Positions 4,225 through 21,974 of a DNA stretch of 64,000 bases are shown in pieces. Position numbers and translations under genes: made by a program. This DNA comes from Maridesulfovibrio sp. (GTDB lineage: Bacteria; Desulfobacterota; Desulfovibrionia; Desulfovibrionales; Desulfovibrionaceae): positions 806,001-870,000 of the forward strand of contig NZ_OY763931.1 in assembly GCF_963667685.1 (NCBI RefSeq). The letters are read 5' to 3'. Within the stretch, counting starts at the first letter, position 1. Each line of letters starts with the position of its first letter. The notes beneath the pieces were generated by a model, which did no database searches, was not told where the DNA came from, and saw nothing but the letters and a program-made list of their open reading frames with translations.

Positions 4225-4584
4225 GGGGGCGCATTGGTTTCGACGGGGGTGAATGAAACCAAGGTTGCAGGTCGTGGCGCCGCTGGCCACGTAAAAAGCG
4301 GCACAATCATAATTGCAAACGACAATTACGATTACGCAATGGCAGCTTAATTAAGCTGACCATGTCATAGCTTTGATGTCTGATATTAGCTTTGACAACA
4401 ACCCCATCAGACTGGCTATCCTTGCGTTGCACGTCCGTAGGGAGGTGAGAACCTAGCACGCGCTGGCTCATATGTTGCCTGTTCAGGGGCGTCCATATGA
4501 GCGAGAAACAATACTTGAACTAAACCTGTAGACATCTTGGCGGAGCATTCTCGGACGGGAGTTCGACTCTCCCCGCCTCCACCA
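4225..4584 (+). ncRNA. ssrA: Transfer-messenger RNA (tmRNA)
   Basis: The 5' end GGGGGC pairs with GCCTCC before the encoded ACCA at 4581-4584, with a G3-U wobble typical of alanine identity. TTTCGAC near the 5' end and GTTCGACTC near the 3' end form the tRNA-like half. The tag frame runs 4315-4350 and reads ANDNYDYAMAA followed by TAA. tmRNA with SmpB rescues stalled ribosomes and marks the product for proteolysis. The 3' end of this gene is the insertion site of the downstream element, and the gene is left intact. Confidence 0.97.
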
Positions 4585-4692
4585 TTTCATTGATTTCATA
4601 CTGTCCCATACAGTTTCACAAAGAACGCTAAACCCTTGTTATTCATACGAATAGCAAGGGTTTTTTCGTTTTTTCTACGTTCGTTATAGTTC
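4571..4692 (+). repeat. attL: left copy of the element's flanking direct repeat
   Basis: The first 27 bases (4571-4597) are identical to 21854-21880. The rest is about 95% identical with a few substitutions and single-base indels. It contains the final ssrA bases, including ACCA, and the ssrA terminator. Confidence 0.93.
4631..4666 (+). terminator. ssrA terminator
   Basis: AACCCTTG-TTATTC pairs with GAATAG-CAAGGGTT, followed by T6. The corresponding hairpin in the right repeat (about 21914-21948) has mismatches. Confidence 0.85.
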
Positions 4693-4788: not shown

Positions 4789-5985
4789 ATGGCTTTAACT
4801 GTGAAGCAGATCCAAGCAGCAAAACCCAAAGAGAAGCTTTATCGAATAACGGACTCAAACGGCTTATGTCTGGAAATAAGACCCACCGGTTCAAAACTGT
4901 GGAGATTCCGATACAGGTTTAACGGCAAAGGGAAAATGATAGGACTGGGCTCCTACCCTGCTACAAGCCTGAAGGACGCCAGAGATAAACGTGACGAGCA
5001 ACGGAAGATCCTTGAACGTGATATAGACCCATCAGAATATAGAAAAGATCAACAGGCCGCAGTGAGTGGGGAAAACGAATTTGAATCAATCGCCCGCGAA
5101 TGGCACACCAAATTCAAAAACACATGGACCGCAGGACACGCCCAAACTGTTATCAGCCGTCTTGAACTAAACTGTTTCCCTTGGATCGGCAAAGTGGTTG
5201 TCAGTGAAATTGAACCGCCGGATATCTTAAAAGTCCTCAGAAGGATTGAAAGCCGGGGTGCGCTTGAAACAGCTCACCGTGTGCGCAGTATTCTTGGTCA
5301 GGTTTTACGCTATGCCGTAGCCACCGGTCGCGCCACCCGTGATGCTACTTCAGATCTTAAAGGTGCTCTTCCACCAGTAAAGCACAAACACATGGCGACA
5401 ATAACCGATCCTAAACAAATCGGCCCCCTTCTCAACAGCATTGATGAATATGAAGGCAGACACATAACCAAGTGCGCTTTGCAACTGGCTCCCTTAGTTT
5501 TCGTCCGCCCCGGAGAACTGAGACATGGTCTATGGAGTGAGATTGACCTCGAAGCAGCTGAATGGCGAATCCCTGCGGGCAAAATGAAAGCTCGCCGTCC
5601 ACACATCGTGCCGCTATCCCGGCAAGCCTTAGAAATTTTATATGAACTAAAACCACTGACCGGTGATGGTGAGTTTCTATTTCCAAGTGTACGCAGCAAG
5701 CTAACACCCATGAGTGAAAACACTGTCAACGGAGCGTTGCGCCGCCTTGGCTACACCAAAGAAGAACTCACAGGACACGGCTTCCGCTCCATGGCTTCAA
5801 CCAACCTTAATGAAAACGGTTGGAAGCCAGACGTGATTGAAAGACAGCTTGCTCACGTTGAGGGAAATAGCGTGCGTGCAGCATACAACCATGCCGACTA
5901 TCTGCCGGAACGGCGCAAGATGATGCAATGGTGGGCTGATTACTTAGATGCTTTGAAGAATGAGGATGAGATACCCAGCATTTAA
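4789..5985 (+). CDS. P4-type tyrosine recombinase / integrase
   Basis: A 398-residue site-specific recombinase that inserts and excises the element at ssrA. The N-terminal DUF4102 arm-binding domain (about 1-85, ITDSNGLCLEIRPTGSKLWR) is followed by a core-binding domain and a catalytic domain with the Arg of VRPGELRHG, the H-x-x-R box in GHGFRSMAS, and a terminal Tyr in RAAYNHADYL. The ATG at 4789 follows GGAGG. A GTG at 4723 would run through the inverted repeat and is less likely. Length is normal for the family. It stands immediately after ssrA and reads into the element. Confidence 0.95.
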   Translation: MALTVKQIQAAKPKEKLYRITDSNGLCLEIRPTGSKLWRFRYRFNGKGKMIGLGSYPATSLKDARDKRDEQRKILERDIDPSEYRKDQQAAVSGENEFESIAREWHTKFKNTWTAGHAQTVISRLELNCFPWIGKVVVSEIEPPDILKVLRRIESRGALETAHRVRSILGQVLRYAVATGRATRDATSDLKGALPPVKHKHMATITDPKQIGPLLNSIDEYEGRHITKCALQLAPLVFVRPGELRHGLWSEIDLEAAEWRIPAGKMKARRPHIVPLSRQALEILYELKPLTGDGEFLFPSVRSKLTPMSENTVNGALRRLGYTKEELTGHGFRSMASTNLNENGWKPDVIERQLAHVEGNSVRAAYNHADYLPERRKMMQWWADYLDALKNEDEIPSI

Positions 5986-5996
5986 GGAGATCAACT

Positions 5997-6647
5997 ATGA
6001 TAGCTAAATTGACACGCACAGCATTGAGAATGACGGCTTTAACTTTTATAATCTTTGAAGTAATGATTCTCTTAGGTCAGCTTTTTACTCTTTCCATGCT
6101 TGACGCTATATATATCGATATCAGCACGACAGCACAGGTAGTAATAATTATATTTAGTATGCTTCTATTTTATTACTCATGCAAGTACACGCATACTACA
6201 TACGAAAAAGCATGGCTACATAGAACATTAGAGCAGGTTATTGAAGGAAGATTGCTTGAACGAAAAAGCATCATTAATGCTCAAAAGATTGAGTCAGAAG
6301 AAAAAATAGCAACACAACTTCATGAAAAAGGTTTAACAACAGACGAATATATTAATGCCTTAGAGCAGCATGTCGAATCATTAAGAGCCGAGCTTGAAGA
6401 AGCACATGAAACAATAAGTAAAAACAATTGGAAAAAGTGGTTTAGTCCTGCGTGTAAAGCTATGGCTGATACGATTAGAGAGAATACTACACATAGGGCT
6501 GACCGTGTCATAGTCAAACAAAAAGACTTTTATGCTCGTGTAATTTCTCACTACCCTGACTATAAAAATCTAAAGGGTAAACCATTTGGATCAGCTTTAT
6601 CTGAAGCATGGAGTTGTATGCCAAAAGGGATAAAACTCGACGACTGA
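5997..6647 (+). CDS. Hypothetical membrane protein with coiled coil
   Basis: 216 residues, not recognised. Two membrane helices (about 12-35 and 45-62) are followed by a long charged helical region (about 70-145) rich in Glu and Lys, and a basic C-terminal domain of about 70 residues. It begins 12 bases after the integrase stop with AAGGAGATC as ribosome binding site, so it is probably co-transcribed with int. It is AT-richer than int. A role in the element's maintenance or in superinfection control is possible but unsupported. Confidence 0.6.
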   Translation: MIAKLTRTALRMTALTFIIFEVMILLGQLFTLSMLDAIYIDISTTAQVVIIIFSMLLFYYSCKYTHTTYEKAWLHRTLEQVIEGRLLERKSIINAQKIESEEKIATQLHEKGLTTDEYINALEQHVESLRAELEEAHETISKNNWKKWFSPACKAMADTIRENTTHRADRVIVKQKDFYARVISHYPDYKNLKGKPFGSALSEAWSCMPKGIKLDD

Positions 6648-8951: not shown

Positions 8952-9257
8952 ATGAAGAATAATGAAGAGAAACGCACCGAGTTCGTGAACACACGCGTCA
9001 CTCCATCGGAAAAGAAAATACTCAAGCTTCAGGCTGAAGCCGAAGACATGAGTCTAGGCGATTATGTGCGCGAAAAACTGAATCGCCCACGGGTCAGGAA
9101 GACAAAAGCAGAAAGACAAAAAGTCATCCACTTGGCCCGCATCGGCAACAACATGAACCAAATAGCTCGCTGGGCAAATACTTATAAGAAAAATGTTGAA
9201 GCGGCACAGGTGGTCCTAACTCTCCTCGAGATAAAGGAGCAGCTCAAATGCTTATGA
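8952..9257 (+). CDS. mobC: MobC-like relaxosome accessory protein
   Basis: A 101-residue basic protein. It starts with a ribbon-helix-helix-like stretch (TEFVNTRVTPSEKKILKLQAE) and ends in the conserved MobC/MbeC pattern IGNNMNQIARWANTYK. Such proteins bind oriT and help the relaxase open the strands. ATG 8952 is preferred over an upstream GTG at 8916. The gene overlaps the start of mobA by 10 bases, so the two are coupled. Confidence 0.85.
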   Translation: MKNNEEKRTEFVNTRVTPSEKKILKLQAEAEDMSLGDYVREKLNRPRVRKTKAERQKVIHLARIGNNMNQIARWANTYKKNVEAAQVVLTLLEIKEQLKCL

Positions 9258-10768
9258 AAGTATTCCGGCACGGAGTCGGACGCGGAGCGAAGGTCGTTGA
9301 ATATGTGACGGGTAAAAAGGACTCTAAGAGGAAGGAAAATCCACCAGAAGTACTGCGCGGAGATCCTGATTCAATCTCAGCCCTCATCGATACCACTACC
9401 CGCAAATGGCGATACACTTCCGGCGTTCTCTCATGGGCTCCAAAGGACAAGGTCACGCCTGCAGACGAAAGAAAGCTCATGGACAGCTTTGAATCATACG
9501 CTTTTGCAGGACTTGAACCGAATCAATATTCAATCCTTTGGGTTCGCCACAGCCATGCTGGGCATCATGAGATGCATTTTGTGATTCCGCGCACAGAACT
9601 ACGAACAGATAAAGCTCTCAATCCTTGCCCACCGGGATGGGAGAAGCAATATAATCCGTGGTGTGAACTTCACAACCGTCGTCACAACTGGGCACGCCCT
9701 GATGAAATGAAACGCGCAAGGTTGGTCAGTCCGGGCAGCTCGATCCAAAGCTATAAATCCGGCAATGCCTCAGAGATAAGGCGGACCGTAACTGAAGCGA
9801 TAGTTCAAGGTGTGGAAGCCGGTCTTATTCATAACCGGCAAGACATCGTCAGGACTCTTGAGGAATTCGGTTTTGGTGTACCGCGCCAAGGCAAGGAATA
9901 CATAACTATTGAACTACCAGAAAACGACAAAAGCACAGTTTCCCAGAAACGGAAAAACCGCCGCATCAGGCTAAAAGGAGTACTTTATGCAAGATCATGG
10001 ACAGCCGAGCAATTCAAAAAACGCGCTGAGCTTAGCCGAGAAAATGAAGGAGCAGATGGAAGAACAAGCGCAAAGCTCCAAGCAGATAATTCAAGAAGGA
10101 TTGCAGAGCTTGAGAAAAGCGTTTCTAAAATCCGCCAAACACGAGCTGAGTACCATCGAAACCGCTATAAAAACAGAGACCGCAGAACTCTCGAAAATTC
10201 AACAAACCTTAATCCGCGATATGCACCGCTCCTTGAAGATCCCCGTCGCAGTTTCATTAGCGGTGACAATCGTTTGCTGTCTGGTCCTAGTGGGCGGGAC
10301 TCTATTCTGGATAGATCTTCAGGGAACAACCCTAGCAGAACTCTCCCAGAAGATAGAACACCAGAGGACAATAGAGAAAAAGCTCGTAAGCTGGGGAGTA
10401 ACGCCCCTTCTGGACAACAACCGCAGATTCATAGTTCTGCCAGCCGGGACAAGCCTGAAGCAGAATTGGCAATCAGGAAACCGTCCCGCCATTTTACTCA
10501 AGGATTAAGCCATGAACGAATTACAGAAGAGCTTATTGGACGCGCTAAGCCGAATCGAAGAGGAACAGGCACGCCGATTGGACGAACAAGATCAAAAGAT
10601 AGCCAAACTGGAAAAGGAAATACAGGGTTGCCGGGACTTGCAGAGCGAATTGGAGCAAGTTTTGAACGAATTGGAAAAATTAGCTCAGCTCTAGTTCAAA
10701 AGATTATGAATCCCAGAAGCCGCAAAAAGACTTTAAAAGCTGGAATTAATAAACTATTGAGCAGGTAA
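9248..10768 (+). CDS. mobA: MobA/MbeA-like relaxase (MOBP, ColE1/HEN-type)
   Basis: A 506-residue relaxase that would nick oriT and lead the strand during mobilization. Tyr19 in KVVEYVTG is the likely nucleophile. SHAGHHEMHFVIPRTEL (about 102-118), followed by ALNPCPPG (123-130), carries the H-E-N signature of ColE1-type relaxases, in which the usual three-His motif is replaced. The C-terminal half is very basic, Ser/Arg-rich and low in predicted structure, exactly where mobB and mobD are encoded in a second frame, so its odd composition may be forced by overprinting. ATG 9248 has GGAG eight bases upstream. Confidence 0.9.
   Translation: MLMKVFRHGVGRGAKVVEYVTGKKDSKRKENPPEVLRGDPDSISALIDTTTRKWRYTSGVLSWAPKDKVTPADERKLMDSFESYAFAGLEPNQYSILWVRHSHAGHHEMHFVIPRTELRTDKALNPCPPGWEKQYNPWCELHNRRHNWARPDEMKRARLVSPGSSIQSYKSGNASEIRRTVTEAIVQGVEAGLIHNRQDIVRTLEEFGFGVPRQGKEYITIELPENDKSTVSQKRKNRRIRLKGVLYARSWTAEQFKKRAELSRENEGADGRTSAKLQADNSRRIAELEKSVSKIRQTRAEYHRNRYKNRDRRTLENSTNLNPRYAPLLEDPRRSFISGDNRLLSGPSGRDSILDRSSGNNPSRTLPEDRTPEDNREKARKLGSNAPSGQQPQIHSSASRDKPEAELAIRKPSRHFTQGLSHERITEELIGRAKPNRRGTGTPIGRTRSKDSQTGKGNTGLPGLAERIGASFERIGKISSALVQKIMNPRSRKKTLKAGINKLLSR
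9987..10508 (+). CDS. mobB: MobB/MbeB-like membrane protein, overprinted inside mobA
   Basis: A 173-residue protein in a different frame wholly inside mobA. The ribosome binding site AAAAGGAG stands just before the ATG. The N-terminal part (SLAEKMKEQMEEQAQSSKQI) resembles the start of ColE1 MbeB. A helical region leads to one membrane helix near 88-110 (VAVSLAVTIVCCLVLVGG) and a short C-terminal domain (LVSWGVTPL, RFIVLPAGT). MbeB of ColE1 is membrane-associated and stabilises the relaxosome. The overlap, order and membrane helix all copy the ColE1 layout, so this is a gene and not a shadow frame. Confidence 0.82.
   Translation: MQDHGQPSNSKNALSLAEKMKEQMEEQAQSSKQIIQEGLQSLRKAFLKSAKHELSTIETAIKTETAELSKIQQTLIRDMHRSLKIPVAVSLAVTIVCCLVLVGGTLFWIDLQGTTLAELSQKIEHQRTIEKKLVSWGVTPLLDNNRRFIVLPAGTSLKQNWQSGNRPAILLKD
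10512..10694 (+). CDS. mobD: MobD/MbeD-like small coiled-coil protein, overprinted inside mobA
   Basis: 60 residues, almost entirely a heptad-patterned helix (LDALSRIEEEQARRLDEQ... LEKEI... LEQVLNELEKLAQL). It begins three bases after mobB, with AAGGA as ribosome binding site, and lies within mobA in another frame. ColE1 MbeD has the same size, position and coiled-coil nature and is linked to entry exclusion there. Function here is inferred from layout. Confidence 0.68.
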   Translation: MNELQKSLLDALSRIEEEQARRLDEQDQKIAKLEKEIQGCRDLQSELEQVLNELEKLAQL

Positions 10769-11865: not shown

Positions 11866-12726
11866 ATGTCCCAGAAGAAACAAGATATACCTTCAAGCTA
11901 CATACTTCCTGATTCCGCAGATCTTACCACCAGCCTTGCCGAAAATGACAGGCTGCAAAAGAGTATAGATAAGAAACGCCCGTTGGAAGGCGATCTTTGG
12001 GAAGTAATCCAGTTCAAGCTGAAAGTTGACTGGACTTACAACTCAAACGCTATTGAAGGCAGCACTTTAAGCCCAAGTGAAACGCTCTTCTTTCTACGTG
12101 AAGGCCTTACCGTAAAGGGCAAGCCGCTCAAGGATTTTCTGGACGCCAGAAACCATTCTGAGGCTGTTGATTTACTTCAGGACACCATCAAGGATGAAAG
12201 GCCGCTTTCTGTTGGATTCATGAAAGAAATAAACGCCTTGATTCTCAATGGAGTCAGTTACACAGCAGCCCAGACACCCGACGGGCAGAGCACCAAAAAA
12301 AAAGCTCATGCCGGGGAATATAAAAAGCATCCGAACCATGTGTTAACACCAAGCGGCGAAATCCATACCTACGTTGAGCCTGAACAAGTAGCCGCTGAAA
12401 TGGATTATCTTTTTAAGTGGATTGACGAGCAGGAGCAAAAGCAAACACATCCTCTGATTACTGCCTCTATAGCGCACTACAATTTTGTACGTATCCATCC
12501 TTTCGATGATGGGAACGGTCGCGGGGCAAGGCTTCTGATGAACCTAATCCTTATGAAAAACGGCTATCTCCCTGCCGTCATTAACAATGAAAACCGTCAG
12601 GATTATATTGAAAGCCTGCATCAGGCAGATAAAGGTGAGCTGGCCCCTTTCTGCGTGTTTGTTTCTCAGTCCCTGCGGGAAACTCAAGAATCGGTTGTGA
12701 AGATTCTGGAAGGTAATGGGAAATAA
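11866..12726 (+). CDS. Fic family protein (probable AMP transferase)
   Basis: 286 residues. The Fic core HPFDDGNGRG starts at His211 and is complete. An N-terminal inhibitory motif S60-N-A-I-E64-G matches (S/T)xxxE(G/N), placing it among class II Fic proteins with internal auto-inhibition. Fic enzymes transfer AMP or another nucleotide part to hydroxyl side chains of target proteins. It follows the RHH gene and converges with the DUF2075 gene. The target is unknown. Confidence 0.92.
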   Translation: MSQKKQDIPSSYILPDSADLTTSLAENDRLQKSIDKKRPLEGDLWEVIQFKLKVDWTYNSNAIEGSTLSPSETLFFLREGLTVKGKPLKDFLDARNHSEAVDLLQDTIKDERPLSVGFMKEINALILNGVSYTAAQTPDGQSTKKKAHAGEYKKHPNHVLTPSGEIHTYVEPEQVAAEMDYLFKWIDEQEQKQTHPLITASIAHYNFVRIHPFDDGNGRGARLLMNLILMKNGYLPAVINNENRQDYIESLHQADKGELAPFCVFVSQSLRETQESVVKILEGNGK

Positions 12727-12744: not shown

Positions 12745-14712
12745 CTAAATATTGGATATGCCACACTCTAGAAGGAAATTGTACATAGGGTCGTAAAACT
12801 CAGGAAGCCTGGTTTCATCTTCAGTGCTACCCTGAGGAATGAAAATGACCATTCCTTGCCGTGCTCTGGTCAACAAAACCCTATACGCATTAAGAAGATA
12901 TCGCCTACGTATTTCATCATTTACATTTTGCCACTTGGTTCCTCGGAAATTTTTAAACTCCCAAGCCCCGTTTTTAATTCTTAAACTCGAATCCCAAGCT
13001 ACACAGGTCCAATCTAACTCAAGACCTTGGATATCAAATTCAGTTGCTGCATCTTCTAAGAATGCAGCTGATCGCACATCATTTTTATTATTTAAAAACC
13101 ATGTCTTAGGATCAATTTGCGATTTAACATGAATACCGTAAGGCTTTAATCTATATGCTCCGGAGTAAGCAGTTATTCCAAGTCCTTCACTGCCACGAGC
13201 TTTTGATTTAAGCCAATTTTTGGCTGCCTCAAGATTACGAGTAACTTTAAGTGGATATACCTCCCTTAATTCTTCATTCAACTCTGCAGCGGTCTCCAGA
13301 TCTAGATCCAATATAGCCTTTACAAATCCAGAAAGTCGCTCAGACCTAAAAGATCTAACTGAAACAGATAAGTGTAAATCTTTTTTGATCTTAAGTTGTT
13401 TAGTTGAAAGTGCTGAATAGATATTGTTTCCATTTGTATATTCAATCTCGGTAAGCTGGTCAGAAGCATATACATCCCAATGTGGATATGAATCATGTAT
13501 TGCAGTAAACCACTCAGGTAGGCCCGCCTCACCTGTGTTTATCTCCTGCCCTCCGCCTATCAGACAAATGATCGTCGCCCAATCTTCATGTCTATCGAGA
13601 ACGCTTATTAAAAATTCTGGCTCAGACATTGCGAAATCACGCATATTTCGTTTTTTAGACATGAAAGAACTCGCCTGCTCTTTAGTCCATGCTCTTTGAG
13701 CTTCATCAAAAACAGCCACTCGTTCGATTGGCGCTAGATCACTCTGCAAATTATCATCTCGAAAGTGGTGTATATTTTGGATGAATGCTTTCGCTTTTCG
13801 ACGGGCTTTATCCTTGGTGATCTTTACGCCTGAACATGATGCTACTTCATTTCTTGCAAGAGCTTCCTGCAAAACATCAACTAAAGGTCCATTACCGGAC
13901 AGGAATACGGCATGCTCACCTTCGTCAACATTATGCCGTTCATTTGCAATGTTAAGTCCAGCGAGAGTCTTACCCGCACCAGGAACACCTGTAATGAAGC
14001 AAATAGATTTACGCTTTTGACGTTTAGAGTGCTCAATAATGTCTGAAATTGTATTTGAGGTAGCGGCAAGATTAATGGCACCAGAATCTGATCTAGAAAT
14101 TTCCTTTACGCTATGACCTGTATAAAGCGCTTGGGCAGCTTCGATAATAGTAGGAGTAGGTTTATATACCGAATTTAGCCATGCTTCAGAGTCTATTTGA
14201 CCTATACATTCAACTTTTTTTGATATTTCAGATAAATATTCAGCAATATTGTTCTTGTTCGCCATAATGGGCTGATAAATAGCATCTGGATATTCTTTGA
14301 GAATAAACTGTTCTCGAGGCGCTTCTGTTGAAACAACGACCGGAACAATCACGCAATTATGGCTTTGCTCGTGAAAATTTTTCAAATCAACTGAATAGTC
14401 TAGTACCTGCTCTATTGCCGACTTCGTATACTTCTTATCGCCAACCTTGAATTCCAGCGCAAAAACGATCCCCTTATAGATAATGACTACATCTATACGT
14501 TTTCCCATTCTGGGAATTGCATATTCAAAAGCTATGTAAGCCCCAGAAAAATCTTTTAACTCACGTTGAAGTATCTCTATCTGAGCCACCCATGCATTTT
14601 TTTGTAAATCTTCTAATGAAAATGTATGGTTCTGAGTTAAATCACCAAGAATTGAAGACGGGAAATCAAGAAGGAATTTATCAACTGGCGAAGAATAATA
14701 GGCTCTTTTCAC
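12745..14712 (-). CDS. DUF2075 (Schlafen-like) helicase with N-terminal nuclease domain
   Basis: 655 residues. The N-terminal domain (about 45-115) has D74 in RIDVVIIYK, E87-F-K89 and Q102, the arrangement of a PD-(D/E)XK nuclease. A superfamily 1-type ATPase follows: Walker A TGVPGAGKT (241-249), Walker B VFDEAQ (334-339), SVRSFRSE near 440, and a C-terminal LLTRARQGMVIFIP motif. DUF2075 is related to the helicase part of Schlafen proteins. A nuclease joined to a helicase on a mobile element suggests defence against foreign DNA or RNA, but this is inference. It is transcribed against its neighbours and AT-richer than the mob genes. Confidence 0.82.
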   Translation of the reverse strand: MKRAYYSSPVDKFLLDFPSSILGDLTQNHTFSLEDLQKNAWVAQIEILQRELKDFSGAYIAFEYAIPRMGKRIDVVIIYKGIVFALEFKVGDKKYTKSAIEQVLDYSVDLKNFHEQSHNCVIVPVVVSTEAPREQFILKEYPDAIYQPIMANKNNIAEYLSEISKKVECIGQIDSEAWLNSVYKPTPTIIEAAQALYTGHSVKEISRSDSGAINLAATSNTISDIIEHSKRQKRKSICFITGVPGAGKTLAGLNIANERHNVDEGEHAVFLSGNGPLVDVLQEALARNEVASCSGVKITKDKARRKAKAFIQNIHHFRDDNLQSDLAPIERVAVFDEAQRAWTKEQASSFMSKKRNMRDFAMSEPEFLISVLDRHEDWATIICLIGGGQEINTGEAGLPEWFTAIHDSYPHWDVYASDQLTEIEYTNGNNIYSALSTKQLKIKKDLHLSVSVRSFRSERLSGFVKAILDLDLETAAELNEELREVYPLKVTRNLEAAKNWLKSKARGSEGLGITAYSGAYRLKPYGIHVKSQIDPKTWFLNNKNDVRSAAFLEDAATEFDIQGLELDWTCVAWDSSLRIKNGAWEFKNFRGTKWQNVNDEIRRRYLLNAYRVLLTRARQGMVIFIPQGSTEDETRLPEFYDPMYNFLLECGISNI

Positions 14713-15469: not shown

Positions 15470-15931
15470 ATGAAAACACTTGGAATTAACACAGCTTCAT
15501 CAGAAGTAAGGTTTGCCCTCATTTCATTTACCAATGATACCCCTACACTTTTAAACGCAGCTAGCGAAAACAGGCTGAGATTCCCTGCAGACTGTGAGGA
15601 TACTGGAGAAAAGGCAAAATGGCTTTATGAAGAATTGGAAAGAATTTTCGAAACCAATCCTGATATAGAATCAATGGTCATCCGTATGAATGGTTATGGC
15701 ATGGAGAAAAAGGCAACAAGAATTTCCTCTCACTTGGATGGGGTAGCACTATTGTCCGCAAAACTGCACGACATTAATGTAGCAATGATGTTGAACTCTC
15801 AGTTAGGGATCAATCAAAAACAAGTGAAGTCCGAAGCAGAGAACCACGTAGGTAAGACTGATAAATACTGGAATGATAGCATGGCATACGCCATTGTTTC
15901 TGCTATCGAGGCAAAGGATATTCATGAGTAA
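15470..15931 (+). CDS. RNase H/RuvC-fold-like protein of unknown function
   Basis: 153 residues. The opening KTLGINTASSEVRFALIS reads like the first strands of an RNase H-like (RuvC-type) fold, and the end YWNDSMAYAIVSAI resembles the last helix carrying acidic residues. In active members the first strand has Asp (GID); here it is Asn (GIN), so catalysis is doubtful. The fold call is from pattern only. The frame is open upstream to 15317, but ATG 15470 fits the domain start and has AGGA before it. The stop overlaps the kinase start by eight bases, so the two are translationally coupled. Confidence 0.5.
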   Translation: MKTLGINTASSEVRFALISFTNDTPTLLNAASENRLRFPADCEDTGEKAKWLYEELERIFETNPDIESMVIRMNGYGMEKKATRISSHLDGVALLSAKLHDINVAMMLNSQLGINQKQVKSEAENHVGKTDKYWNDSMAYAIVSAIEAKDIHE

Positions 15932-16988
15932 AAGACTGCTATCCCCTAAGGACCAAATATATAAATACACACTTATCAAAAAGCTTGGCCAAGGTGGCTT
16001 TGGCCAAGTTTGGCTAGCTAAGGACGCCGCTGTCGATAGAGTTCTTGCTGTAAAAATAATAGAATCGTCAGGCAACATAATATCTGCGTTAAAAGAAGCC
16101 CGGATTGGTAATAAGCTATCACACGATAATCTTTCTAGAATTCATTATGCTGACGTCGTCAAAGAAAATGACATAGATCTAGTCATCATTGCGATGGATC
16201 ATTACGAGAGGGGAGATATCTCGCAGTTGGCAAATACAGACAACTTTATCCCTATCAAACAAACCATTCGAGTGATCATTGACGTTTTAAAAGGACTAGA
16301 TCATTTACATCGTCAAAATTTATATCATTGCGACATTAAACCAAACAACATCTTAATTAATGACAATGGGAGTGGAATTCTTACAGATTATGGAATTTCT
16401 TGCCCTTCATCTAATGGAGAATCTGTCTGTCCTGAATCTGTATACGTACTGCACATGTCCCCTGAAGTTCTCAAGGACAATAAAATAAACGCCCAAACTG
16501 ATATTTATCAATTAGGTCTGACTGCATTCAGAATGTTAACAGACTTAAAATTCCTCGAGAATAAAGATAATCTTCTTGGAAGATCTACCTATTACGAAAA
16601 AATAAAATCAGGAACTATAATATCAAACTCGGACTATTTAGACTTCATTCCGCGCCAGCTAAAAGCAATTATCAATAAAGCCTTAAAAAAAGAGCCTAGC
16701 CAACGTTACGGTTCAGCTATCGAGATGCGCAGAGCACTTGAATCATTACGTCTGATAGGCACTTGGACCGTTGACAATTCGAACAATTATCTTGGGGAAG
16801 ATAAAAGCTATTACTACCGATTTGAAATTTCACCAAGGCGGGCTGGCAATATTGATTTCACAGCATTTAAAACTAATAAATCCAGTGGTAAAGAAACAAG
16901 AGTCACTAAATATTGCGGGAAAAATATATCCAAACGAAAAGGGGACACTTTACGAAAACAATTCATGCAATACGTTGTGTGCGGCTAA
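15924..16988 (+). CDS. Ser/Thr protein kinase with unknown C-terminal domain
   Basis: 354 residues, soluble. The glycine loop is GQGGFGQVW (22-30), the ATP lysine K44 is in AVKII, the catalytic loop HCDIKPNN has D137, and the metal site D155 is in TDYG. MSPEVL takes the place of the usual APE motif. The kinase domain ends near 275. About 75 residues follow (YYYRFEISPRRAG... GKETRVTKYCGKN) that I do not recognise and which may bind a substrate or sensor ligand. It is coupled to the RNase H-like gene upstream. A Hanks-type kinase without membrane anchor on a mobile element recalls defence kinases such as Stk2, but the pairing here is different. Confidence 0.85.
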   Translation: MSKRLLSPKDQIYKYTLIKKLGQGGFGQVWLAKDAAVDRVLAVKIIESSGNIISALKEARIGNKLSHDNLSRIHYADVVKENDIDLVIIAMDHYERGDISQLANTDNFIPIKQTIRVIIDVLKGLDHLHRQNLYHCDIKPNNILINDNGSGILTDYGISCPSSNGESVCPESVYVLHMSPEVLKDNKINAQTDIYQLGLTAFRMLTDLKFLENKDNLLGRSTYYEKIKSGTIISNSDYLDFIPRQLKAIINKALKKEPSQRYGSAIEMRRALESLRLIGTWTVDNSNNYLGEDKSYYYRFEISPRRAGNIDFTAFKTNKSSGKETRVTKYCGKNISKRKGDTLRKQFMQYVVCG

Positions 16989-18097
16989 GCCACCCCATCA
17001 CTCAACCGATAACTAGTACTCCGCCCGCCTCCGGGGTTCTGGAGCAGTATTCCGCGCTCCTTCAAATCCTTGATGTCACGCAGAGCTGTATCTGTGGAGC
17101 ATTTTGCCAGCTTGGCGTATTTTGAAGAGTTCATGTATCCCTTGAAGTTTTCATCAAGCATGCGCTCAAGTACCCCCCGCTGACGTTCATTCACTGGTGA
17201 CTGCTGGGAGATCCGTTCCCACAGGCTGGCTTTGTGGAGTACATGGCTCAGCGTGGATTCGGCATTGATCAAGGCTTCTTTCAGGCAATCCAGAAACCAC
17301 TCCAGCCATTTGGTGATATCAGGCGTACCGCGCTGCTGCCTTTCCAGATGGGAATAGTAATCCTTGCGTTTCAGCTCAATCTGCGTGGACATGCTGTAAT
17401 AACGCTCCGCCGCTCCATCTGCACGGGCCAAGGCCATATCCGCGATGGTTCGCGCAATACGCCCGTTACCGTCTTCAAAGGGGTGAATGGTAACAAACCA
17501 CAGGTGGGCTATTCCAGCACGCAGAACCGGATCAGTATCATCTTCGCTCTCGAACCATTTCAGAAATCTAGCCATCTCTTGCTCAAGGCGATCCGCATGC
17601 GGTGCTTCAAAATGGACTTTCTCGCGTCCCATGGGCCCGGAGATTACCTGCATGGCTCCAACCTCCGCAGGTCGCCAGTCTGCAACGGTAATCCGTTTGA
17701 TGCCGCTGCGTCCGGTCGGAAAAAGTGCCGCGTGCCAGTCACAAAGCCGATCCTTGGTCAACGGCTCCGCGTATCGCTGCGTGGCATCGAGCATCATTTC
17801 AACTATGCCGTCCACATCACGCCCAGCCGGTTTCAACCCAGCAATATCGATTCCCAGTCGCTGAGCAATAGAGGACCGTACCTCCTCAGGGTTGAGGAGT
17901 TCCCCTTCTATGGCTGATGAATGAACTATGTCATTGGTAAGAGTCTTCAGGCCCGCTTCATTTCTCAGATCGAAGCCTAGATTCCCAATCTTACCCAGCA
18001 GCACGCCCTGCCGATGGCGGACGTCTGCCAGTTTGGAAATCAGCTTTTCTGCGTTCCATGAGAAATTTGGCCAGTCTTGATGTTGATGGAGGGGCAT
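16985..18097 (-). CDS. Fic family protein with DUF4172 N-terminus and winged-helix C-terminus
   Basis: 370 residues. The DUF4172 region is at about 5-75, the inhibitory motif S60-S-A-I-E64-G follows, and the Fic core HPFEDGNGR starts at His205. A C-terminal winged helix (about 300-365, YAKLAKCSTDTALRDIKDLKERGIL) probably binds DNA. This is a common chromosomal and island Fic type with regulated AMP transfer. The base composition is GC-richer than the genes on either side, suggesting separate acquisition. Its stop codon overlaps that of the convergent kinase by four bases. No clear ribosome binding site precedes the ATG. Confidence 0.92.
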   Translation of the reverse strand: MPLHQHQDWPNFSWNAEKLISKLADVRHRQGVLLGKIGNLGFDLRNEAGLKTLTNDIVHSSAIEGELLNPEEVRSSIAQRLGIDIAGLKPAGRDVDGIVEMMLDATQRYAEPLTKDRLCDWHAALFPTGRSGIKRITVADWRPAEVGAMQVISGPMGREKVHFEAPHADRLEQEMARFLKWFESEDDTDPVLRAGIAHLWFVTIHPFEDGNGRIARTIADMALARADGAAERYYSMSTQIELKRKDYYSHLERQQRGTPDITKWLEWFLDCLKEALINAESTLSHVLHKASLWERISQQSPVNERQRGVLERMLDENFKGYMNSSKYAKLAKCSTDTALRDIKDLKERGILLQNPGGGRSTSYRLSDGVA

Positions 18098-18230: not shown

Positions 18231-19925
18231 TTAATTTAAATTTTCGTTAAGAATTTTCAAAAATTGAATGGGGACTGGCAACCTATAATGCCTACACCCC
18301 AAAAGTATTATAGGCAAAAAATTATATTTGACAGCAGACATGTTTTCAAAAAAATCAGTCTCTTCACATTCTCCAAAGATTACTTTCAAAAAATCTTCTT
18401 TTGATTCTTCCACCGGTACGCCAGAAAAAGTAGAACCATGTGAACCTAAATCATTATAAAATCTTTCTTCTGAATTTTTATTAGGATACCAAAATTGAAA
18501 ATTACAATGTTGAAGATCATTTTCTTTAATTCTCTGAATTTTACTATAGATATCATCAAAATTAAAAATTGCAGCAAAGGCAGCACAAAAAGGTAATAAA
18601 ATACTTCCAGCTGTCATTTCTTCTCGGTAAGAATCGGTAGACTCAAGAGGATGATCTAAAACATCAATATATGAATGAAGGTTACATGTATATCTACCAT
18701 GCCTAATATAACTAAACTCAAATAACGAAACTATTTCATTTAACCATTCTTTTAAATCATAATGATTAGTACGATCAAAACCAAGAAAAAGTAGAGCTAA
18801 AGAAATATCTATTGCTTGATCATCTTTAAAGGGAGAACATAAAGTAGGATTGTTGACGATCAGCTGTTTTAATGCAGAATATTGCGCACGCAATTTCTCC
18901 CTTAATATCTCTATCATATCATCATAGCCTTGCGTAAGTTGGTTGCTAAAAAAAACAAACCATAACCCATGCATAGCCATCCGACTTAAAACATCAAACA
19001 TCCTAAAATTAACCGCCACCTTACATGGCAATCCAACAGTCTTCGACATACCATGCTTAACTTCTGCAAGAGGTATTATTTTAGAGTTCAATTCTGTTGT
19101 TATTTGATCATAAACCACAAAAACAGAGAAGAAAGACGACTGTATCTGCTTAGATAATTTGTCTTTTTCATTGAAAGACTCACTCGCGACGTTCCAAGCA
19201 TGAAGCAAGGACAACTCTGCGGCTTTGTATGCTGCCTCTAAATTGTTATCTCTTCTACACCACGAAAATAACATCCATAAGCAGATACAGATCTGTCGCA
19301 ACGATATTAAAACAGTCCTTTTATCTTCCGAATTTGACAAGATAGCTGAAATCAGTTGCGAAAAATATTTGCAAGAAACATCAGGCTCATCCAATAGAGC
19401 TAAAGATTTTCGGAGCGAAGATTGAAAATTTGAAGGTAAAAGTTCCTCTCGCAAAAAACCAGCCAAAATAATATCAGCTAGCCGATCTCCATGCCACTCT
19501 TGAAACTCAACTCCATCCCTTGAATTACGATCGAGAAATCCTTCAACCTGCGGCCGAACCTGTTCCTTTATCTCTCCTCCAAAACATAGACAGATAACGA
19601 TGGGTTTTCCTCGGTGCTCAACAGGAAGCCTATTTGGTATATACGAATCAAGAATTTCCTCTAACGATGGTCTTAAAGCTTGCTCAGAATTCCCACTCCA
19701 TGAGGTCCGAGTTAGATCTCCCGATTTAACAGAAAGCAAATAGACTCGTTCGACATCATCCTCAAAACAACCAACTGCGGCGATATCAACACCATCCTGT
19801 CGTGTTCCTCTCCCAGGCCTAGAAAAAACAGTTAGCCCTAACTCACTCAACAGATCAGGAAGAATTGCATCCAATTCATCGCGTTCCTTTAAAGAGGCAA
19901 GGTATTCTCTTAAAACTAATTTCAT
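18231..19925 (-). CDS. PD-(D/E)XK-like nuclease, second gene of a two-gene operon
   Basis: 564 residues. The N-terminal about 160 residues look like a restriction-endonuclease fold: LLSELGLTVFSRPG, then D47 in DGVDIAA and K67 in LLSVKSGD, giving the D...x-V-K arrangement with Ser in place of the usual acidic residue. YIPNRLPVEHRGKPIVICLCFGG continues the fold. The remaining 400 residues are helical, with no motif I can name. The start ATG overlaps the upstream gene's stop by four bases (ATGA), so both proteins are made together. It is strongly AT-rich. A DNA-cleaving defence effector is plausible but unproven. Confidence 0.62.
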   Translation of the reverse strand: MKLVLREYLASLKERDELDAILPDLLSELGLTVFSRPGRGTRQDGVDIAAVGCFEDDVERVYLLSVKSGDLTRTSWSGNSEQALRPSLEEILDSYIPNRLPVEHRGKPIVICLCFGGEIKEQVRPQVEGFLDRNSRDGVEFQEWHGDRLADIILAGFLREELLPSNFQSSLRKSLALLDEPDVSCKYFSQLISAILSNSEDKRTVLISLRQICICLWMLFSWCRRDNNLEAAYKAAELSLLHAWNVASESFNEKDKLSKQIQSSFFSVFVVYDQITTELNSKIIPLAEVKHGMSKTVGLPCKVAVNFRMFDVLSRMAMHGLWFVFFSNQLTQGYDDMIEILREKLRAQYSALKQLIVNNPTLCSPFKDDQAIDISLALLFLGFDRTNHYDLKEWLNEIVSLFEFSYIRHGRYTCNLHSYIDVLDHPLESTDSYREEMTAGSILLPFCAAFAAIFNFDDIYSKIQRIKENDLQHCNFQFWYPNKNSEERFYNDLGSHGSTFSGVPVEESKEDFLKVIFGECEETDFFENMSAVKYNFLPIILLGCRHYRLPVPIQFLKILNENLN

Positions 19926-21646
19926 GATTCACACCCTTCAATGCGAAAAATAGAAGAATAATAATCTAAACGAATTGGATCTAATATATCTAACGAAGGA
20001 TATTCTATGGAATGCGTAAATGATTGAAGTGGGAATTCAGCTCGCTTTGGTTCATCGCTTAACTCATTAGTATATGTTATAGAAGCCTCTCCATACAAAA
20101 GAACAACACTTTGGGCAATTGAAGCAAAGATAGAATTATTTCTAGCTTCTTTATGAATTTCACTTTGTCTTAAATACTCTTTATGCTGATATACATTTAA
20201 ATCTGCTGCCGAAGGCTTGAACTCTTTGAAGCCCTTCATCTTTTCAAATTCATCATGATATACACTCAACCTTTCTAATAAATCATCACACCACTTTTGT
20301 GTTGCAATATTGAAATTTCTTTTTTCAGCAAAGATATATTTCCGCAACTCTCCTGGGTAATTTAATAACATCAAGTCAAAAAAAATATTGTCTAAATCAT
20401 TCGTATAAACCTTTGGAGCACATTCATAGATAGAAAGAAAATAACTCCCAGCAGAAACAGGAAACATAACCAGCCAACCACAGCATTTACGAGCTAAAAA
20501 TAAATAATCTACATCTTCTGATATTTGAGATTCATCCAAATTTAGGAGCAATTTATTGTGTGCTGATGCAACAATGTCATGAACTGCACGGCACAATTTA
20601 ACTCTTTTAGACAAAAACCATTTAGTTACAATTTTTTTTAAAACATTCTCATTATCTATAATTTCATTAACAGTCCCATCAAAAGAACCAATAGCTATCT
20701 CCCTATTTTGGATAAGAATATACTTTAAATAAGACACAGCATATTCACAAAGGTGAGTCGAAATCATCTCGGCCAAAATATTGTCTATCAAATCAAGAGT
20801 GCCTGAATGCTCACAATTAACACTTTTAAGTTCTGCTAAGAACTCGATTTTTAATTCATCAGAAAAGTATTTACTTTCTCTAAACAGTAAAGATGCTACT
20901 GCATGTATTACATAAGGACCTTTCTTCTCGAACACGTTAAGACAAAATTCCTTAAAAGACTTACTATCAATATTATCTTTTTTGTATATCTCAAATGCAG
21001 ACTGCAATAGAATTGATAACAGATGATCAGATTTCGCAACTGTAGCTTTGCTAACAAGAGCATCAAAGGCCTTTTTTAAAGCTTGTTTCTCCTCACCATA
21101 TTCCAAATATCCAAGGGCACTTGTTGCACCAATTTTGAACTTATATCTTGAATCATGTAATAGCTCAATAGTTGTGCTTAAATACTTATCTAAATCAAAT
21201 CTTGACCCTGCAATTAGAACTCGTGTGAGAATTTCTGAATCAATGTCCTGAGTCTTTAATAGCTCATTTAAAGCTTGTTTAGGGCGGTCTTTAGAACCAA
21301 AACAAAACTCAGCGAATTCAGGATATAAAATCCCTGCCGCTAAATCATTTCCAGCTTCAACAGTTAAGTGAGTCACGCACTGCATAACATCAGCAACTGG
21401 AGCATCAATAAATCGAAGACATTTCCCAAAAAAATGGCGTGTACCAAAAAAATCAATGTTAGAATCATCGTTCCTTAAATCCATAAACTCAGAAACGACA
21501 TCTATTTTTTTTTGATTATGTAAAAATGCTAATTCTTCACCTATAGATTCTCTCAATTCAATATTTTCTCTATATATTGACTTCAATTCCTTTAAAAAAA
21601 TACCATCGGAATATGCTTGGATAATCTTATGCCGAAACTCGCTCAT
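19922..21646 (-). CDS. Large helical protein of unknown function, first gene of a two-gene operon
   Basis: About 574 residues. The start at 21646 is chosen because GGAG lies nine bases upstream; an in-frame ATG at 21685 would add 13 residues but has no ribosome binding site. The protein is almost wholly helical with regularly spaced pairs such as EILTRVLIAGS..., KFKIGATSALGYLEYGEEKQALKKAFDAL and YVIHAVASLLFRES, suggesting HEAT-like repeats over about residues 120-330. No catalytic motif is visible. It is coupled to the nuclease gene and lies at the attR end of the element, a common place for defence cargo. Family not recognised. Confidence 0.6.
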   Translation of the reverse strand: MSEFRHKIIQAYSDGIFLKELKSIYRENIELRESIGEELAFLHNQKKIDVVSEFMDLRNDDSNIDFFGTRHFFGKCLRFIDAPVADVMQCVTHLTVEAGNDLAAGILYPEFAEFCFGSKDRPKQALNELLKTQDIDSEILTRVLIAGSRFDLDKYLSTTIELLHDSRYKFKIGATSALGYLEYGEEKQALKKAFDALVSKATVAKSDHLLSILLQSAFEIYKKDNIDSKSFKEFCLNVFEKKGPYVIHAVASLLFRESKYFSDELKIEFLAELKSVNCEHSGTLDLIDNILAEMISTHLCEYAVSYLKYILIQNREIAIGSFDGTVNEIIDNENVLKKIVTKWFLSKRVKLCRAVHDIVASAHNKLLLNLDESQISEDVDYLFLARKCCGWLVMFPVSAGSYFLSIYECAPKVYTNDLDNIFFDLMLLNYPGELRKYIFAEKRNFNIATQKWCDDLLERLSVYHDEFEKMKGFKEFKPSAADLNVYQHKEYLRQSEIHKEARNNSIFASIAQSVVLLYGEASITYTNELSDEPKRAEFPLQSFTHSIEYPSLDILDPIRLDYYSSIFRIEGCES

Positions 21647-21694
21647 ATGCCGTATCTCCAGTTGCAAATCTTTATTGATACGCATTTGCTATAC

Positions 21695-21853: not shown

Positions 21854-21974
21854 CCCCGCCTCCACCATTTCATTGATTTCTTACTGTCCCATACAGTTTC
21901 GCAAAGAACGCTAACCCCTTATTATTCATACGAATAGCAAGGTTTTTTTCGTTTTTCTACGTTCGTTATAGTTC
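21854..21974 (+). repeat. attR: right copy of the flanking direct repeat
   Basis: Begins with the last 14 bases of ssrA (CCCCGCCTCCACCA) and continues for about 107 bases matching the region after ssrA, including a degenerate copy of its terminator. It marks the right end of the element. Confidence 0.93.

Follow-up and report, generated by a model that had tools for sequence, protein, structure and literature searches.

A probable Olokun (OloA-OloB) gene pair carried by a tmRNA-integrated island of Maridesulfovibrio

Olokun is already a named two-gene bacterial anti-phage system, composed of OloA and OloB, and the original Olokun is reported to have been tested against phages. The gene pair described here is in that sense an ordinary find in kind: it lies at positions 18,231 to 21,685 of a stretch of 64,000 nucleotides from Maridesulfovibrio sp. 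(NCBI RefSeq assembly GCF_963667685.1, contig NZ_OY763931.1, positions 806,001 to 870,000; the whole stretch is hereafter the window), and, judging by the sequences of its relatives, it is very probably an Olokun pair carried as cargo of a tmRNA-integrated island. Passages of published papers attribute Olokun to Millman et al. 2022 and list it in E. coli islands (PMC10121019), list its mechanism as unknown (PMC12926258), describe it as not thoroughly characterised (PMC12592470), tabulate it under nuclease activity, the mechanisms of that table being either validated or predicted (PMC10855318), report it in a Pseudomonas island hotspot (PMC12629846) and mention a phage that lysed Olokun-bearing strains (PMC12390725). 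No paper in the open-access literature searched contains the whole words "Olokun" and "Mrr" together, and the Mrr assignment made below may be in print elsewhere.

Assignment of the pair to Olokun and its conservation as a unit

Both proteins of the pair match the Olokun models of PADLOC over nearly their full length. OloB matches PDLC03926 with 620 bits (E 1.2e-186), its residues 1-557 covering positions 1-551 of the 556 of the model, and upon splitting OloB in three, each third matches the corresponding part of that model. OloA matches PDLC03925 with 283 bits (E 1.8e-84), residues 19-586 aligning with positions 12-595 of 596. The same models recover a pair from E. coli (L058) with 688 and 370 bits, which is 43% (OloB) and 26% (OloA) identical to the pair of the window. 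We assign the pair to Olokun because PADLOC matches both of its proteins and the E. coli pair found with the same models is related to it. An earlier note on this DNA, made from its letters, had regarded the pair as an undescribed system resembling none that it knew, a claim that the match of both proteins to OloA and OloB overturns; its proposal of a defence module agrees with the likeness to Olokun, as far as the relatives tell. Pfam and NCBIfam gave no family above cut-off for either protein, and PHROGs gave weak matches only (best E 0.0089). The features of the pair are as follows.

18231 to 19925, minus strand: oloB, open reading frame (ORF) of 564 amino acids with an ATG start, downstream partner in the pair
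19922 to 21685, minus strand: oloA, ORF of 587 amino acids with an ATG start, upstream partner in the pair
19922 to 19925, minus strand: ATGA overlap of four bases between the end of oloA and the start of oloB, from the ORF coordinates and the sequence
19446 to 19925, minus strand: N-terminal nuclease-like domain of OloB, residues 1-160, from alignments, an AlphaFold2 model and hhalign

The two genes and their coupling by a four-base overlap are thus as the earlier note had them. Since near-full-length relatives exist elsewhere, both ORFs are, on the strength of sequence comparison, intact genes and not chance ORFs.

The two genes also occur together as a unit. Among 27 loci tested with OloA and OloB profiles of our own, 24 (the window's included) hold OloB and all 24 also hold OloA; for the 23 other loci this includes two in which OloA is a form of 300 amino acids. 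The fetched locus ends inside OloA in L003, L030 and L031, as well as in the window's own. The four-base overlap of oloA and oloB recurs in 17 of the 23 other loci, and the remaining junctions comprise a one-base overlap (L018), a 17-base overlap (L033 and L036), a one-base gap (L058), two ISAs1 ORFs inserted between oloA and oloB (L022) and an OloB start that was put upstream by the ORF caller (L030).

On plasmids, 34 records hold OloB and 12 hold OloA by single-sequence search, all 12 being among the 34. The plasmid OloBs are of two kinds by identity to that of the window, 13 at 31-46% and 21 at 23-24%, from which 11 and two loci, respectively, were fetched; both loci fetched from the second kind have the short OloA. 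The neighbourhoods of nine annotated plasmid loci of the main type were read, two further fetched loci that carry no annotation being outside these nine: in five, the surroundings include CBASS-type, TIR/SIR2, NACHT or DNA methyltransferase/helicase genes, and in two, RES or AbiEii-type genes.

The pair is rare in genomes. The PADLOC OloB model matched three of 395 genomes of a phylum sample and four of 369 genomes of a second, class sample; upon removal of two matches discussed below (G072 and G618), two of 395 (the window's genome included) and three of 369 remain, the latter including G453, the centre of that sample, which was picked because it carries the pair. OloA was not found in 16 other genomes of the genus. 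OloA matches appeared in five more distant genomes of 58 searched, where they were weak (19-30 bits), and also in two of 14 control genomes; they are taken to be generic helical repeats. In E. coli, 14 of 5426 complete genomes hold the pair, with 72-73% DNA identity to the copy on a viral contig, and one of these 14 loci has an IS3-like element in the stretch. A single-sequence scan of viral contigs gave no match and an alignment-based scan of them gave five loci, of which L033 and L037 share ORF layout and translation starts; a collection of phage records gave no OloB match.

A reduced form of the pair is found on two Klebsiella plasmids (L023, 5096-7686, and L024, 5096-7674), where OloB is paired with an OloA of 300 amino acids that consists of the C-terminal part only, covering positions 313-589 or 360-589 of the PADLOC OloA model. 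The single-sequence OloA search missed both of these short forms, and a remnant of the N-terminal part of OloA was found at neither locus. Their OloBs are 22-24% identical to that of the window over the whole length, keep D47, K67 and the other invariant residues, and overlap the preceding gene by four bases. As the short OloA keeps the C-terminal part beside an intact OloB, the comparison suggests that OloB may be tied to the C-terminus of OloA and that the solenoid would be a changeable sensor.

The PADLOC OloB model reaches further than our own profile. It also matches a protein at L032 (1387-4300; 170 bits), one at L004 (132 bits) and a fragment at L005 (37 bits), none of which our OloB profile recognises. 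The L032 protein matches LmuA as well, and visual inspection shows a DL...ELK motif close to its C-terminal end. We rejected the matches in G072 and G618 as relatives, our profile being negative for both and hhalign against our OloB alignment giving probabilities of 0.4% and 0.1%; this check covered two OloB-like proteins, the small L005 fragment lying outside it. The gene that precedes the OloB-like protein of G618 (at L032) matches PADLOC OloA with 78 bits and our OloA alignment with an hhalign probability of 6.1% (E 0.006), which speaks against dropping G618 and makes a remote branch of Olokun possible. Going by these sequence matches, either the PADLOC OloB model would be composite or proteins of the L032 type would be a very remote branch, and a single model may gather two families.

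Predicted structures and possible mechanism

OloA is predicted to form a HEAT-like helical solenoid over residues ~2-484, after which come one long helix and a C-terminal region of low confidence that includes beta strands (AlphaFold2 model, mean pLDDT 80, pTM 0.67). Searching the PDB with a profile of the OloA alignment yielded ARM, HEAT-type and alphaRep proteins, the best match being to a designed protein (E 8.2e-11). Foldseek placed the model near engineered repeat proteins, the A subunit of PP2A and AP2 scaffolds, with eight matches at E <= 0.001 (from ~4e-4) and TM-scores of up to ~0.4 among the best 50 rows. No Pfam HEAT family was reached above cut-off, HEAT_2 appearing at E 0.1 in one relative only. 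These matches and the modelled solenoid support the earlier description of a long helical protein with HEAT-like periodicity. We take the matches to PP2A, AP2 and ARM proteins as a sign of shared repeat architecture rather than of common descent.

OloB is predicted to consist of an N-terminal domain with an Mrr-like PD-(D/E)XK fold and a mostly helical remainder (AlphaFold2 model, mean pLDDT 78, pTM 0.78). According to DSSP, the N-terminal part of the model has helices at residues 15-28, 84-99, 124-134 and 146-156 and strands at 32-35, 48-53, 59-67, 109-115 and 139-144, an order of elements that by our own reading would correspond to the PD-(D/E)XK core (alpha-beta-beta-beta-alpha-beta). An hhalign comparison of 23 OloB N-terminal domains with 11 Mrr_cat domains gave a probability of 85.5% and a score of 41.4 over columns 7-157, with an E-value of 5.7e-6 that applies to one comparison; none of 20 column-shuffled copies exceeded a score of 19.9, and reversing the alignment gave 13.6. 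The Mrr_cat set came from 25 places, of which 15 were coded and ten (L074-L083) left out; of the 15, four were truncated at the end of a contig and discarded, leaving the 11 used. In this alignment D47 and K67 of OloB fall on the Asp and Lys of Mrr. No variation occurs at E14, E17, D19, D47, K67, R73 or Q82 among 17 OloBs (the window's included) or among the 23. Together, the model and the alignment support a nuclease-like, Mrr-like PD-(D/E)XK fold for residues 1-160. The earlier note had seen a PD-(D/E)XK nuclease in these residues, which is supported by the order of elements in the model and by the alignment to Mrr_cat, subject to one reservation: none of the 17 OloBs has Asp, Glu or Gln at the position two before K67.

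Several points weigh against the reading of the pair as Olokun with an Mrr-like nuclease. The assignment to Olokun was made through PADLOC models and the E. coli pair and not through the published reference proteins themselves, and a bare PADLOC match is weaker evidence than it looks, since some proteins matched by the PADLOC OloB model are missed by our own profile. The sequences behind our profiles, 17 of OloB and 14 of OloA, all come from the 27 loci and therefore match by construction, and the kinship of these members to the proteins of the window rests on single-sequence searches and PADLOC. Two of the nine plasmid loci have no recognisable defence-like neighbour, and no chance level was computed for such neighbours. 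The AlphaFold2 models of OloA and OloB were made from seven sequences each. For OloB, Foldseek with the whole model returned 287 matches with no PDB match at E <= 0.001, and the best 50 of the 287 rows held no usable nuclease match; sequence searches of solved structures likewise gave nothing useful. The Pfam model of Mrr_cat did not match the OloB of the window and matched one of the 23 N-terminal domains, at E 0.1, while the hhalign comparison had Mrr_cat as its one real family, no other real family serving as negative control. Finally, all 17 OloBs have S, T, L, V or I at position 65, two residues ahead of K67; the site may therefore be inactive, and cleavage is not assured.

With these points in view, we give about an even chance to a mechanism in which OloA senses or scaffolds and the Mrr-like domain of OloB cuts nucleic acid. 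OloA would sense the infection and also serve as a scaffold, holding OloB, probably by the C-terminal part of OloA, and controlling the Mrr-like nuclease; upon infection, OloB would cleave nucleic acid, either the DNA of the phage or, as abortive infection, that of the host.

The best-surviving rival, which we consider doubtful, retains the assignment to Olokun and takes the N-terminus of OloB for a pseudo-nuclease that would bind nucleic acid and not cut it, the effector being the helical remainder or OloA. It accounts for the absence of an acid or Gln two before the lysine in 17 of 17 proteins, and the remainder of OloB has invariant residues of its own, including W479, P481, R545 and R548. 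However, E14, E17, D47, K67 and Q82 are invariant, as would fit an active site that has been retained, with another acid able to take the role, and the first 160 residues contain 16 of the 28 invariant positions. A more specific reading, unlikely in our view, has a HEAT-like solenoid as infection sensor, exchangeable and dropped in the Klebsiella form, driving an Mrr-like nuclease that lacks the usual acid or Gln near the lysine, with the OloA C-terminus coupling OloB. Were it true, sensor and effector would have been separated by nature within Olokun, and an unusual or non-cleaving nuclease site would be in use.

The island and its other genes

The pair lies at one end of the island, between a Fic-family gene (16985..18097) and attR. 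The features that delimit the island are the following.

4225-4584: tmRNA gene
4571 to 4692, no strand: attL, spanning the tmRNA 3' end and flank
21854 to 21974, no strand: attR, 121 bases repeating the 3' end of the tmRNA together with its downstream flank

The attR repeat is 95% identical to the tmRNA 3' end and flank (4571-4692) and is separated from the start of oloA by 168 bases, and the pair hence stands directly against attR as described before. The higher AT content reported for the pair is also borne out, oloB having 36.0% and oloA 32.8% GC, against 47.5% for the ORF at 9248-10768 and 49.0% for the 1-kb interval 5001-6000; the labels "mob" (ORF 9248-10768) and "integrase" are those of the earlier note. 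A tblastn search with the host gene to the right of attR against 20 tmRNA/att loci (18 of which belong to other genomes) matched the window's own locus only, the loci extending just ~1500 bases beyond the match, and no empty integration site was shown. A promoter and terminator scan found 17 promoter-like sites where 13.7 were expected, and nothing resembling a terminator; we therefore make no claim about expression.

A role of the pair in maintaining or transferring the island, in place of phage defence, is very improbable. The position of the pair beside attR and the presence of relatives on plasmids could be taken that way, but the carriers are varied (an island, plasmids, stretches beside prophage genes of E. 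coli and viral contigs) and some relatives adjoin other defence genes.

Other genes of the island match defence models of PADLOC. The gene at 12745-14712 (minus strand) encodes a protein of 655 amino acids with a Schlafen-group-3 helicase domain, matches the PADLOC candidate PDC-S41 with 964 bits and is likely a second defence gene on the same island. The Fic-family gene next to oloB (16985-18097, minus strand) matches PADLOC SoFic with 157 bits, and another Fic-family gene (11866-12726, plus strand) matches the candidate PDC-S04 with 132 bits and SoFic with 115 bits. A Ser/Thr protein kinase-like gene at 15873-16988 (plus strand) is matched by many PADLOC kinase models (mad6, PD-T4-6 and others), and these matches probably reflect a generic kinase, because so many kinase models match. 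Another genome of the genus (G398; L045 and L055) has two extra copies of the tmRNA att flank, at ~7 and 26 kb on the downstream side of its tmRNA gene, and the tmRNA site there seems to hold other elements.

Comparison with described systems

We give almost no credence to the pair being a genuinely undescribed system, for which the failure of Pfam and NCBIfam to place either protein would speak, as it is contradicted by the near-full-length PADLOC matches of OloA and OloB in the same gene order, with E. coli relatives found by the same models. With this analysis the known Olokun pairs gain a divergent one, located on a mobile island, and a claimed new system comes off the list. For the mechanism, its value lies in the alignments, which name D47, K67, E14, E17 and Q82 as targets for mutation, and in the short-OloA form, which sets the solenoid apart from the remainder. 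The analysis is also a warning that one PADLOC OloB model may collect two families.

In comparison with Mrr_cat (PF04471), the N-terminus of OloB shares the predicted order of the fold, the profile alignment and the placement of D47 and K67 on the Mrr Asp and Lys, whereas it stays below the Pfam cut-off and has S, T, L, V or I two before the Lys. With HEAT and ARM scaffolds, such as the A subunit of PP2A and the AP2 adaptor, OloA shares a helical solenoid, and its profile resembles designed ARM and alphaRep proteins, but the TM-score does not exceed ~0.4 (best 50 rows), Pfam HEAT is not reached and the C-terminal part is modelled at low confidence. The Klebsiella form is like the pair of the window in OloB, in D47 and K67 and in the overlap, and differs in its OloA of 300 amino acids, reduced to the C-terminal part. 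With Olokun itself, the pair has in common both genes, their order, their tight coupling and a near-full-length profile match of both proteins; it is divergent in sequence and sits on an island at the tmRNA site, whereas in E. coli the loci that were read, three of 14, adjoin prophage tail genes near paoD.

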